From Pseudoruegeria sp. HB172150 (GTDB lineage: Bacteria > Pseudomonadota > Alphaproteobacteria > Rhodobacterales > Rhodobacteraceae): a stretch of 64,000 bases of DNA. The notes below the pieces were generated by a model that was not told where the DNA came from, did no database searches, and was given only the letters and a program-made list of their open reading frames with translations. Where the stretch lies: NCBI RefSeq assembly GCF_013184805.1, contig NZ_JAATNG010000004.1, positions 124,001 to 188,000 on the forward strand, given 5' to 3'. Positions within the stretch are counted from its first letter, which is position 1; each line of letters starts with the position of its first letter. The position numbers and the translations under genes are program-made. Positions 60,486 to 64,000 of the stretch are shown here, one piece after another.

Positions 60486-60923
60486 CTATCCTTCTCGGTA
60501 CCGCTTGTGACGGCTTGTGAACTCGCGGGCCAGATCGGCCAGCGTGATGGCGGCGAAACGGTTCAGCAGCAGCGCCTCTGCCTCGGCGAAGGTCTCGTCG
60601 AGGATGGCGTTCACCGATTGCTCTACCAGGCAGTCCGGCGTCTCTGTCCGGTTGCCGATGGCGAAGACGGCGGGTTCCCCCAGCGCTTCGTGCAGCTGGC
60701 GGAGCGTCAGCTTTTCGAGGTCGCAGGAGATCGTCCAGCCCCCGGCATGGCCCTTGGCGGAGGACACGTAGCCGGCCTTGCGCAACAGGCCCATGGTGCG
60801 GCGGACCACGACTGGGTTGGTGCGCATGCAGTCGGCCAGAACCTCTGACGTGACCGGGCCGTCCTGTTCGGACATATGAAGCAGGGCATGGAGAACGGAA
60901 GAAAGTCGGCTGTCGCGTTTCAT
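60486..60923 (-). CDS. Rrf2-family transcriptional regulator
   Basis: 145 residues. The winged helix is at VTSEVLADCMRTNPVVVRRTMGLLRKAGYVSSAKGHAGGWTIS (core NPVVVRRTMGLLRKAG and GGW). It has only C32, C67 and C98, not the three closely spaced Cys that bind an Fe-S cluster in IscR or NsrR. It probably senses a thiol or electrophile signal and controls the downstream oxidoreductase; this is inference. No Shine-Dalgarno is visible. Confidence 0.88.
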   Translation of the reverse strand: MKRDSRLSSVLHALLHMSEQDGPVTSEVLADCMRTNPVVVRRTMGLLRKAGYVSSAKGHAGGWTISCDLEKLTLRQLHEALGEPAVFAIGNRTETPDCLVEQSVNAILDETFAEAEALLLNRFAAITLADLAREFTSRHKRYREG

Positions 60924-60940
60924 GTAACTTTAGATATTAC
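60924..60940 (-). promoter_or_regulatory. AT-rich promoter/operator just upstream of the Rrf2 gene
   Basis: Read on the minus strand it contains TAATAT (60938-60933) as a -10-like element 10 nt from the ATG, and the ends GTAA/TTAC form a weak inverted repeat. This suggests a nearly leaderless, self-controlled message. Confidence 0.3.
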
Positions 60941-61055
60941 GATTCCGATCAGATGGGAAGCGTCAAATTGCTGGCGGAAAAAAGACCGGCCGGTGTGCCT
61001 TGACGGTATCCCGGAATACGCCATTGTTCGCGATAACACCCCGGGACGTAACTTC

Positions 61056-62033
61056 ATGCATGACGCGGCAAAATCGAACTTGCGCGGCGCGGCCTTCGCC
61101 TTGGCGGGCTTTGCGCTATTCGCCACCCACGACGTGGTGGTCAAATCGCTCGGCGCGCAGTTCGCGACGTTTCAGATCATCTTTTTCAGTGTGCTGCTGA
61201 GCTTCCCGCTGGTGATGCTGATGCTGATGCGGGACACGAACGCGGGCACGCTGATTCCGGTGCATCCGTGGTGGACAGCCTTGAGGACGGCGTCGGCGGT
61301 GGTGACTGGGCTGTGCATTTTCTACGCCTTCGCGACGCTGCCGCTGGCCGAGGTTTACGCGATCATCTTCGCGATGCCGCTGCTGATCACGGTGCTGTCG
61401 ATCCCGATCCTCGGGGAACATGTGGGTCGGCACCGCTGGGCGGCGGTGGCGGTCGGGCTGGTGGGCGTTCTGGTGGTTCTGCGGCCGGGCGCGTCGGAGT
61501 TCACGCTTGGGCATATCGCGGCGCTGACCGGGGCCTGTACCGGGTCCCTCGTGTCGATCATCGTGCGCAAGATCGGGCAGGACGAGCGCAACGCGGTGCT
61601 GCTTCTGTACCCGATGATGGCGAACTTTCTGGTGATGGCGTCGGTCCTGCCCTTCGTCTACCGGCCGATGGAAGTGCATCACCTGGGACTTGTCGGCCTG
61701 ATGGCGGTGCTGGCCTTTGTCGCGGGGCTGCTGATGATCCAGGCCTACAAGGCCGGCGACGCCGCCATCGTCGCCCCGATGCAGTATTCGCAGATGGTCT
61801 GGGCGGCGATCTACGGGTTCTATTTCTTCGGTGAATCCGTCGACACGATGACCTGGATCGGTGCCGGGATCATCATCGCAAGCGGCCTGTATATCGTGCT
61901 GCGCGAGAGCCTTGGCGGGATGTCGCGGGTCACCCCGGTTCTGCGCGCGCGTTCGCGCGTAGAGACCGGCACGACACCGCGAATGTCGGTCCTTCACCGG
62001 ATCGGCCGGCGCAGCGTTCAGAGCACGCATTGA
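61056..62033 (+). CDS. DMT-superfamily transporter (EamA domains)
   Basis: 325 residues from the ATG at 61056. Ten membrane helices in two EamA repeats: FALAGFALFATHDVVVKSLG at the start and GDAAIVAPMQYSQMVWAAIYGFYFFGESVD in the second repeat are typical of RhaT/RarD-like carriers. A ~30-residue basic tail follows the last helix. It likely exports or imports a small metabolite; the substrate is unknown. Confidence 0.9.
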   Translation: MHDAAKSNLRGAAFALAGFALFATHDVVVKSLGAQFATFQIIFFSVLLSFPLVMLMLMRDTNAGTLIPVHPWWTALRTASAVVTGLCIFYAFATLPLAEVYAIIFAMPLLITVLSIPILGEHVGRHRWAAVAVGLVGVLVVLRPGASEFTLGHIAALTGACTGSLVSIIVRKIGQDERNAVLLLYPMMANFLVMASVLPFVYRPMEVHHLGLVGLMAVLAFVAGLLMIQAYKAGDAAIVAPMQYSQMVWAAIYGFYFFGESVDTMTWIGAGIIIASGLYIVLRESLGGMSRVTPVLRARSRVETGTTPRMSVLHRIGRRSVQSTH

Positions 62034-62079: not shown

Positions 62080-62156
62080 CGGAGTGTAGCTCAGCCTGGT
62101 AGAGCACTGTCTTCGGGAGGCAGGGGTCGTGAGTTCGAATCTCGCCACTCCGACCA
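62080..62156 (+). tRNA. tRNA-Pro (anticodon CGG)
   Basis: Complete cloverleaf: acceptor CGGAGTG/CACTCCG, D-arm GCTC/GAGC, anticodon stem CTGTC/GGCAG with loop TTCGGGA and anticodon CGG (decodes CCG), T-loop TTCGAAT, discriminator A and encoded CCA. Its 3' half is repeated at 63623-63671. Confidence 0.97.
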
Positions 62157-62847
62157 ATTTAATCGCGCGCCTCCGCTTCCAATATTTCCGCCTTCGCACC
62201 GGAAGCGCCGAGATACCCTTCGTCGCCCGTCGATGGCCGCTGCTGTTTCCACTTGAAAACAAGGGTGATGGCGCAGTTGCTTCGATTGCCGTTTGGCCAC
62301 GGTCGTTCCGAAGACGCGTGCGCCATCGGCCAAGGGGACGTCGCGGTGCGTTGCCCAAGGAATCGCCGTATTTTCTAGGACGCGAGGCGTCACGCCCGTC
62401 ATGTTCGCGCCAGCCGCGAGCATGCGCCACGTCGTTTTGATCGGCCTGCAGCAGGATCCCCGGGGCCGGACAACCCGTTCGCGTAGCATTTCTCAGCAGC
62501 GCGCGTGAGATAGCGGCATGCGAGGCAGCCGCGAGGGTTGCCACTTCCCCTTTGTCTTTTTCGCCGCGCAGGATCCTGGCCTTCCGGAAGACGATGCCGC
62601 GGTCGGTGCCGATCCATCCATCTTTGGGGGGAATGCCGAGGCGATTGTTCTGCAAGTTGTTCGGCCACGATCTGTAGTGAATGGGTACAGAAAAAGACCG
62701 CGACATTGTTAACGGGACCAAGTGTCGCCGTTGCGGTTTCGTCCTACAAACAGCCTAAGTTTGAAAAGGGAGGCATTCGCCTTGCGTCTGGCGACGGAAA
62801 GCGTTTCAAGGGTGATCTGTGGCCAGTAGGCAGAAGGGGCGGCAGGA
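62157..62847. other. Gene-poor stretch between tRNA-Pro and the sulfotransferase gene, possible gene remnant
   Basis: About 690 bp with no gene I can support. On the minus strand around 62400-62700 a frame reads plausibly (VFRKARILRGEKDKGEVATL, AAASHAAISRALLRNA), and a second frame continues at about 62250-62430 (TPRVLENTAIPWATH). This would be expected of a gene broken by a frameshift. The family is not recognised. Base composition is a little more AT-rich than the core genes. Confidence 0.35.
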
Positions 62848-63525
62848 ATGCTGGTATCGCATACGAACAAGTTCATCTACCTAAAGACCAGAAAGACTGC
62901 CAGCACGACGATCGAGGGCGCACTAGAGCGCTTCTGCGCACCGCCTGGTCATAAGATCGAGCACTATAGACCTTTTCTATCGACGGAATACGGCGTCATC
63001 GCCGCGCGCGCTGGTGGTGGAAAGTCTGATGATCTGTTGTGGGCCCATTCATCGGCACAGGCAGTGAAGGACTATCTGGGTGCCGGCACATTCCGCCGCT
63101 ACGAGAAGATCTATGCGGTGCGGAATCCGTTCGACAAGGTGGTTTCCTGGTTCTGGCATGTCATGCCCAAGCATGTCCGGGAGGGCTTGGAAGACGACTT
63201 CGATCAAGCGCAGTGGCTGTTCCGGCGTTGGATCCTGATGCGACCGCAGTTGCCGACAGACCTCCAGTTCTACCGAGTTCGCGCAGGCAAGTTTAAGGCT
63301 TTCGTCATTCGCTATGAAACCATGACTGACGACCTCAGCCGCCTGTTCGAATCGTGGGGCGAGACCTTCGATCCGGCCGGCCTGCACGATTGGAAGACCC
63401 AGCAGCGCCGCCATAAAGGCATTCCACTTTCCGAGTATTACGACGACGACGCAATCTCCCAGGTTCGAAACCAGTTCAAGAGCGACTTCGAGAGCTTTGG
63501 GTATTCGATGGATGTACCGTCGTAG
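62848..63525 (+). CDS. Sulfotransferase-family protein
   Basis: 225 residues. The PAPS 5'-phosphosulfate loop is KTRKTASTTIEGAL near the N-terminus, and the 3'-phosphate motif is YAVRNPFDKVVSWFWHV near residue 92. The later FVIRYETMTDDLSRLFESWG is also typical. It would transfer sulfate from PAPS to a carbohydrate or other acceptor in the cytoplasm. No polysaccharide cluster is nearby. Its codons are less GC-biased than the core genes, and it sits between tRNA-Pro and a copy of the tRNA 3' half, so it was probably acquired. Confidence 0.85.
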   Translation: MLVSHTNKFIYLKTRKTASTTIEGALERFCAPPGHKIEHYRPFLSTEYGVIAARAGGGKSDDLLWAHSSAQAVKDYLGAGTFRRYEKIYAVRNPFDKVVSWFWHVMPKHVREGLEDDFDQAQWLFRRWILMRPQLPTDLQFYRVRAGKFKAFVIRYETMTDDLSRLFESWGETFDPAGLHDWKTQQRRHKGIPLSEYYDDDAISQVRNQFKSDFESFGYSMDVPS

Positions 63526-63622
63526 TGGAGGGTCCACAAAGTCACTGAAAGGCGTGCCGGGGTCTGAGTGCCGACGAACCGTGCCGGAATCATTCCCTCA
63601 AGACGGGCCAAGTGCGTTAGGG

Positions 63623-63671
63623 CTGTCTTCGGGAGGCAGGGGCGTGAGTTCGAATCTCGCCAGCCCAACCA
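63623..63671 (+). repeat. Partial copy of the tRNA-Pro 3' half (candidate attachment site)
   Basis: 49 nt running from the anticodon stem to CCA, matching 46 of 50 positions of 62107-62156 with one deletion (20 identical bases at the start). The D-arm and 5' acceptor strand are missing, so it is not a working tRNA. It has the form expected of an attachment site left by integration at tRNA-Pro. Confidence 0.8.
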
Positions 63672-63774: not shown

Positions 63775-64000
63775 CTAGATCACGGCGGTCTGCTGCACAC
63801 CGGCGGCATCGAGGAAGATCGCTTCCACCTGATCGGGAATCCCGGCCGCAGGGGTCGTCAGTTGCGCCACGGCGGTTCCGTCGACCTCGAGCGTGCCGCC
63901 GACGTTGTCGTAGCCAATGCGGTCTGCCGCGACTTCGCCGGCCAGGAGCTGAACGAGGGTGGTCAGGTCCACCTGGTCGTATTCGGCGGGTGACGCGCTG
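63775..64000 (-). CDS. C-terminal end of an unidentified protein, cut by window edge
   Basis: The frame is open from the right edge to a TAG at 63775, giving the last ~75 residues (for example LVQLLAGEVAADRIGYDNVG, ending GVQQTAVI). It is Ala/Val/Asp-rich with no Cys and looks beta-rich and acidic, like tails of surface or calcium-binding proteins. A GTG at 63972 could start a short protein, but the frame continues upstream without a stop. Function cannot be told. Confidence 0.5.
   Translation of the reverse strand, partial: SASPAEYDQVDLTTLVQLLAGEVAADRIGYDNVGGTLEVDGTAVAQLTTPAAGIPDQVEAIFLDAAGVQQTAVI

Follow-up and report, generated by a model that had tools for sequence, protein, structure and literature searches.

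The DNA at positions 62080-63671 of the window, which runs from a proline tRNA gene to a second, partial copy of that gene's 3' end, is very probably the eroded stub of a larger genomic island or prophage at tRNA-Pro(CGG). The window is the whole stretch of DNA that was analysed, 64 kb in length (G000:C16:124001-188000), and comes from a genome (G000) of 5.06 Mb in 21 contigs. This reading is built on the att duplication that bounds the stretch, on the integrase remnant within it, of which the family and orientation are shown, on further members of that family beside the same tRNA in other genomes and on the variability of the DNA to the right of the tRNA. The first-pass annotation of this DNA had offered three options, a miniature island, the stub of a larger island and a hotspot for single cargo genes. 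It is the second that is now favoured, since the remnant comes from a family of integrases for which this tRNA is an insertion target, and it is found in the place and orientation expected of it. The first option, which would have no integrase, is disfavoured because the element did once have one, now dead, and the single-gene hotspot is not borne out by the islands found at this site in other genomes. The features of the locus and its flanks are as follows.

60876..62033, plus strand: conserved left flank, a transporter-like ORF (DMT type by reading of the ORF, no database call)
62080..62156, plus strand: intact tRNA-Pro(CGG) (ARAGORN; Rfam, 60.7 bits), the 3' 50 nt of which (62107-62156) are attL by the repeat
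62214..62567, minus strand: remains of a tyrosine integrase, its C-terminal third in decayed form, related to the phage 16-3 Int type (profile, tblastn)
62568..62625, minus strand: weak candidate for a frameshifted extension of that remnant (the profile positions run on in a different reading frame; score -3.5, alone not significant)
62848..63525, plus strand: intact sulfotransferase gene, 225 aa, PF03567 (Pfam), the only surviving cargo gene
63623..63671, plus strand: attR, a displaced 3' fragment of tRNA-Pro(CGG) (repeat, whole-genome search, shuffles)
63775..64000, minus strand: right flank, outside the element; a giant RTX-like adhesin gene (ORF reading), which extends past the window, has its 3' end here

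The duplicated tRNA end

The fragment at 63623-63671 copies positions 28-77 of the tRNA in the same orientation, with 46 identities, 3 mismatches and 1 deleted base, and the first 20 nt of the repeat are identical in attL and attR. ARAGORN, Rfam and the alignment thus agree with the first-pass annotation, in which the 3' 50 nt of the tRNA recur about 1.5 kb away as a 49-nt copy with 46 matches that lacks the 5' half. A search of the whole G000 genome with the tRNA returned the copy with an E value of 3.8e-13, and its local alignment score was 38.5 where 300 shuffles reached 14 at most, so that a chance origin is excluded.

Sequence likeness by itself would also fit a chance match or a tandem tRNA gene that has degenerated, a reading so improbable that it can practically be set aside. 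The 5' half of the tRNA is absent upstream of the copy, ARAGORN and Rfam call no second tRNA near the site at 62080-62156, the E value and the shuffles leave chance far behind, and 3' tails of the same kind are found in other genomes. The integrase remnant and the lack of a 5' half jointly refute it. Had the copy been part of another intact tRNA, this would, as was named in advance, have spoken against integration of an element at the 3' end of the tRNA, but according to ARAGORN and Rfam it is not. The idea of such an integration is supported by the att duplication and by the integrase remnant.

Substitutions in the displaced tail (63620-63671) give an acceptor 3' half, CAGCCC, that is complementary to GGGCTG at its start and upstream. 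A tRNA-like fold of the copy was considered and rejected, as with a z of -1.03 it is no better than shuffles. A scan for promoters and terminators gave nothing above chance, and a repeat search found, besides the tRNA repeat, only short chance-like repeats.

A decayed integrase beside the tRNA

The DNA enclosed by the two att sites had been described as containing a gene-poor stretch and no integrase. The second statement holds for an intact gene only, and the gene-poor stretch is not empty, as the decayed C-terminus of a tyrosine integrase lies on the minus strand at 62214-62567. The minus strand at 62226-62555 was first flagged by tblastn of integrases from the same tRNA in other genomes, three of which match the remnant region in searches of the 64-kb window with E values of 9.6e-9 (G272), 2.3e-8 (G146) and 4.3e-5 (G154); the reversed window, as a control, gave no tblastn match. 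A first profile, made of 14 ORFs of related loci, matched 62214-62567 with an i-E of 3.2e-16, the next match among 384 six-frame pieces of the window having an E of 0.3. In this profile one ORF (L158) was in a non-integrase frame, and another (L160) was dropped from the second model, which replaces the first and is made of 24 sequences chosen by similarity to the G146 integrase, none of them from G000. The second profile gave an i-E of 8e-13 at the same position and an E of 2.4 for the next match in the 384 six-frame pieces. Pfam and PHROGs are both blind to the remnant, a 92-aa piece of it having been tried in each and given no match.

What is left is about the last third of the protein, with an in-frame stop and with the N-terminal part missing. 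In the alignment the His, Arg and His of the HxLRH motif and the Tyr are replaced, which we take to be the catalytic residues of a tyrosine integrase, and these are consequently not intact. The missing part of the gene would run into the sulfotransferase gene, where the profiles found no significant trace of it, therefore the integrase gene is truncated. The C-terminus of the remnant faces the tRNA, from which it is 57 bp away.

The integrase family and phage 16-3

From its sequence the remnant appears to be homologous to the Int family of Rhizobium phage 16-3. The link runs through intermediate integrases, as 16-3 Int has no match in the 64-kb window by tblastn at E 0.05, the same being true of RHph_Y1_10 Int, and the G146 integrase does not match G000 at E 1e-8 in a scan of 295 genomes of the family. 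The G146 integrase is itself 34% identical to 16-3 Int over 98% of its length (E 2e-41) and is matched by other Rhizobium phage integrases with up to 36.5% identity; a phi3LM21 integrase is also among its matches.

The record of phage 16-3 (DQ500118) annotates attP next to int. Within this attP a 45-nt stretch, from TTCGGGA of the anticodon loop to CCA, is identical to the window tRNA at 38 of its 45 positions, and the annotated 23-bp core matches the tRNA at only 12 of 23 positions in an ungapped comparison. The int gene is 81 bp from the tRNA tail in attP and faces it, the same relative orientation as that of the remnant in the window. PMC12429752 lists tRNA-Pro(CGG) as the integration site of phage 16-3, and the prophage phi3LM21 is described in PMC5537653 as sitting at tRNA-Pro(CGG) with the gene reconstituted. 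In two further papers, a prophage of Paracoccus yeei is placed beside tRNA-Pro(TGG) (PMC6209633) and tRNA hot spots in Sinorhizobium are treated (PMC11476347). A phage collection searched with the tRNA gave 220 records and, among the matches listed, these were mostly annotated tRNA-Pro.

In the bacterial family the G146 integrase, used as a query, matches 30 of 295 genomes at E 1e-8. Flanks of up to 1.5 kb were fetched for 30 integrase loci and contain a tRNA in 22 cases, which is Arg in 8, Val in 6, Pro(CGG) in 5 and Thr in 3. In the Pro(CGG) cases G146, G272 and G154, long open integrase frames lie directly downstream of the tRNA and face it. A C-terminal integrase piece follows tRNA-Pro(CGG) in G121 (L183, L180), with two stops inside, and in G084 (L182, L174), as an open frame of 124 aa near the contig end; these pieces are parallel remnants at the same site. 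In G092 and G119 a relative of the integrase adjoins a partial tRNA-Pro tail.

The insertion site in related genomes

To the left of the tRNA the DNA is common to all four congeners and this likeness ends within 3 bases of the tRNA end, with no DNA to the right shared with any of the four in the stretches compared. It had been proposed that the same cargo and the same partial copy in all relatives would argue against an inserted element, and this is not what is seen, as the four congeners are also without the cargo. No relative with an empty site and the same right flank was found, and as the right flank is not beside the tRNA in any of the four congeners the original extent of the element cannot be reconstructed. 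A 20-kb piece of G000 that starts 22 kb to the right of the tRNA has its counterpart in G004 at 1.99-2.02 Mb, and the tRNA-Pro of G004 is some 260-290 kb away from there.

More widely, a match to the tRNA at E 1e-9 is present in 147 of 198 family genomes. The DNA following tRNA-Pro(CGG) on the right was compared for 35 loci in 35 genomes, on the plus strand and over up to 18 kb, several being shorter at contig ends; G010, G204 and a second copy in G002 were left out, and the five compared loci with the least similar tRNA (77-81%) also type as tRNA-Pro(CGG). The right side differs in almost all of these genomes, with nine pairs sharing more than 200 bp in total, the right sides of G002 and G004 being collinear nearly throughout and G016, G018 and G019 having some pieces in common. 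The tRNA-Pro(CGG) site is a hotspot.

Partial 3' tails of tRNA-Pro number at least seven in six genomes (G000, which has two, G003, G092, G136, G146 and G169). In G092 and G169 a single contig carries both the tRNA and the tail, at a distance of 14.7 and 17.7 kb respectively, and integrases lie between them. The cargo, from a reading of the ORFs, is a type I restriction-modification set in G092 and satellite-like genes in G169. A hotspot that gathers single cargo genes without integrases would also give a right side that differs in almost all genomes compared. We regard it as extremely improbable, and it finds no support because both of these contiguous islands are multi-gene and carry integrases; the recurrence of one integrase family at the site tells against it as well.

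In the G092 island (L090) the tail is a perfect 46 nt and a distant integrase of the 16-3 type stands at the tail end. The end of an integrase was also suspected beside the tRNA in G003 and was rejected, Pfam giving no support.

The second orphan 3' tail of tRNA-Pro(CGG) in G000 is on contig C1 (L008:8605-9801, G000:C1:2436604-2437800) and has 48 of 50 matches. It begins 4 nt past the stop codon of an intact and different tyrosine integrase (C1:2436604-2437746), and the only full-length tRNA-Pro match seen on C1 is tRNA-Pro(TGG). Beyond the tail and integrase come genes for a large serine recombinase and for an ATPase that resembles those of conjugation coupling, and most of this region has no match in the four congeners. 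The case of G119 (L185) is comparable, with a G092-like integrase beside an 83% tRNA-Pro tail and the tRNA on a different contig.

A further possibility is that the stretch is a miniature att-flanked cassette that is still mobile by means of an integrase acting in trans, for example that at C1:2436604-2437746. It would then resemble the CIMEs, which are cis-mobilizable elements with att sites and without recombination genes. The first 20 nt of the repeat, including the anticodon loop, are the same in attL, attR and the C1 orphan tail, and an intact integrase abuts this tail. The crossovers of such integrases are expected at the anticodon loop, and with those 20 nt identical at both ends the integrase of another element could excise the cassette. 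We consider such a mobile cassette very unlikely. The remnant inside the stretch suggests that the element once had its own enzyme, and the C1 integrase is of another type, having an Arm-DNA-bind_3 domain and a best tblastn match in the stretch with an E of only 0.81 that lies away from the remnant. The right att site has drifted, with 4 changes in 50, and no close relative of the cargo was found in the 295 family genomes or the four congeners. As in CIMEs, the cargo is flanked by two att-like repeats and there is no functional recombinase; unlike them the locus has an integrase remnant, and its mobilisation is putative only. Judged on sequence, there is accordingly a very small chance that the 1.5-kb stretch can still be excised as a single-gene cassette by the integrase of another element at the same tRNA.

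Proposed history and known systems

The preferred reading, that of an eroded stub, would begin with a site-specific recombination event that put an element into tRNA-Pro(CGG) at its 3' end, the enzyme probably being a tyrosine integrase of the Rhizobium phage 16-3 type that the element itself encoded. With a new 3' half supplied by the arriving DNA, the tRNA would have stayed whole at attL, and the old 3' end would have been pushed to the far side, where it is now attR (63623-63671). The integrase gene would have been just inside attL and reading towards the tRNA. A later deletion may have taken the N-terminal two thirds of the integrase and most of the island, with the remaining stretch decaying until attL, a dead integrase fragment, the sulfotransferase gene and a mutated attR were left. 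Both this deletion and the size of the part that was lost we infer. Integration of the 16-3 type at the anticodon region would explain why the repeat is direct, why the tRNA is intact and its former 3' end displaced, and why the enzyme fossil lies where it does and points the way it does, and the loss of the integrase N-terminus and island body, together with decay, would explain the remaining features.

The rules of Islander that were used ask for a tDNA with a downstream 3' fragment, an integrase ORF inside and a length of 2-200 kb, the 2-kb lower limit and the required integrase being given as a filter in PMC4383910. The locus has the tDNA and 3' fragment, has no integrase ORF and at 1.5 kb is below the range, and as it fails these two filters the fitting name for it is island remnant and not island. 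It is like the tRNA islands described in PMC4383910 in its intact tDNA, in the displaced 3' fragment that lies downstream in the same orientation and reaches the tRNA 3' end, in a repeat that starts at the anticodon arm and in its tyrosine integrase, here a remnant. It differs from them in its small size and in having only a decayed C-terminal stub of the integrase, being a fossil and not putatively active.

With phage 16-3 the locus has in common the integrase family, via intermediates, the target tRNA-Pro(CGG) and an int 3' end that faces the tRNA tail, but its integrase is truncated and, as far as its residues can tell, catalytically dead, and the stretch has no recognised phage gene apart from a weak PHROGs match of the sulfotransferase. 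The islands of G092 and G169 are likewise bounded by tRNA-Pro(CGG) and its own 3' tail, but they have a complete integrase at the tail end and a cargo of several genes.

Island remnants are a common type of genome fossil, and both the fate of this element and its kind are ordinary. No published description of this locus was found in the literature on loci of this type. It is a clean example of an island that has decayed to near nothing, in which the two ends, a fossil of the enzyme and one gene persist, and in one bacterial family relatives of the phage 16-3 integrase have repeatedly been used, and have decayed, at tRNA-Pro(CGG). Remnants of this sort would escape island finders that demand a length of 2 kb and an integrase that is intact.

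The sulfotransferase gene and the right flank

The first-pass annotation had a single sulfotransferase gene in the stretch, with codons less GC-biased than usual, and both points are upheld. The product matches PF03567 with 35.8 bits against a curated cut-off of 22 (E 1.2e-8), and its GC3 is 70% compared with a median of 81% for 38 long window ORFs that a simple rule selected; total GC is 56% for the gene and 65% for the window. None of the ten other ORFs in or overlapping the stretch matches Pfam at 0.01. The gene is still open, thus it has perhaps been kept by selection.

The sulfotransferase is missing from all four congeners at E 1e-3. Relatives are present in 19 of the 295 family genomes, G000 included, all others having 38% identity or less, and the 1.5-kb flanks of the 19 other loci that were fetched are all free of tRNAs. 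The sole relative in genome_contigs is that of Ferirhizobium litorale, at 47% identity, and no integrase was seen adjoining it in the ORF list. Five plasmid records match at 1e-10, the best with 40% identity. The phage collection gave no tblastn match at 1e-3, and in PHROGs there is a weak match (E 5.9e-5) to a family of sulfotransferases carried by phages, which is classed as 'moron'. The gene looks like a horizontally acquired accessory gene. That it was part of the original island cargo we infer only, since nothing links the sulfotransferase to this type of island.

It is possible, if rather unlikely, that two events are superimposed here, with an old island leaving attR and the integrase stub and the sulfotransferase being inserted later by unrelated recombination. 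The gene is intact amid decay, its homologues are patchy with none seen beside tRNAs, and it is absent from the congeners, all of which would suit a separate arrival. However, no transposase-like ORF is present, the other ORFs being without a Pfam match, no terminal repeat was found that brackets the sulfotransferase, and an intact cargo gene in a decayed island requires no second event.

Outside the element, the giant and repetitive RTX-like adhesin gene of the right flank runs on to G000:C16:199958, and next to it, from a reading of the ORFs, are apparent type I secretion genes (HlyD-like, ABC and TolC-like).
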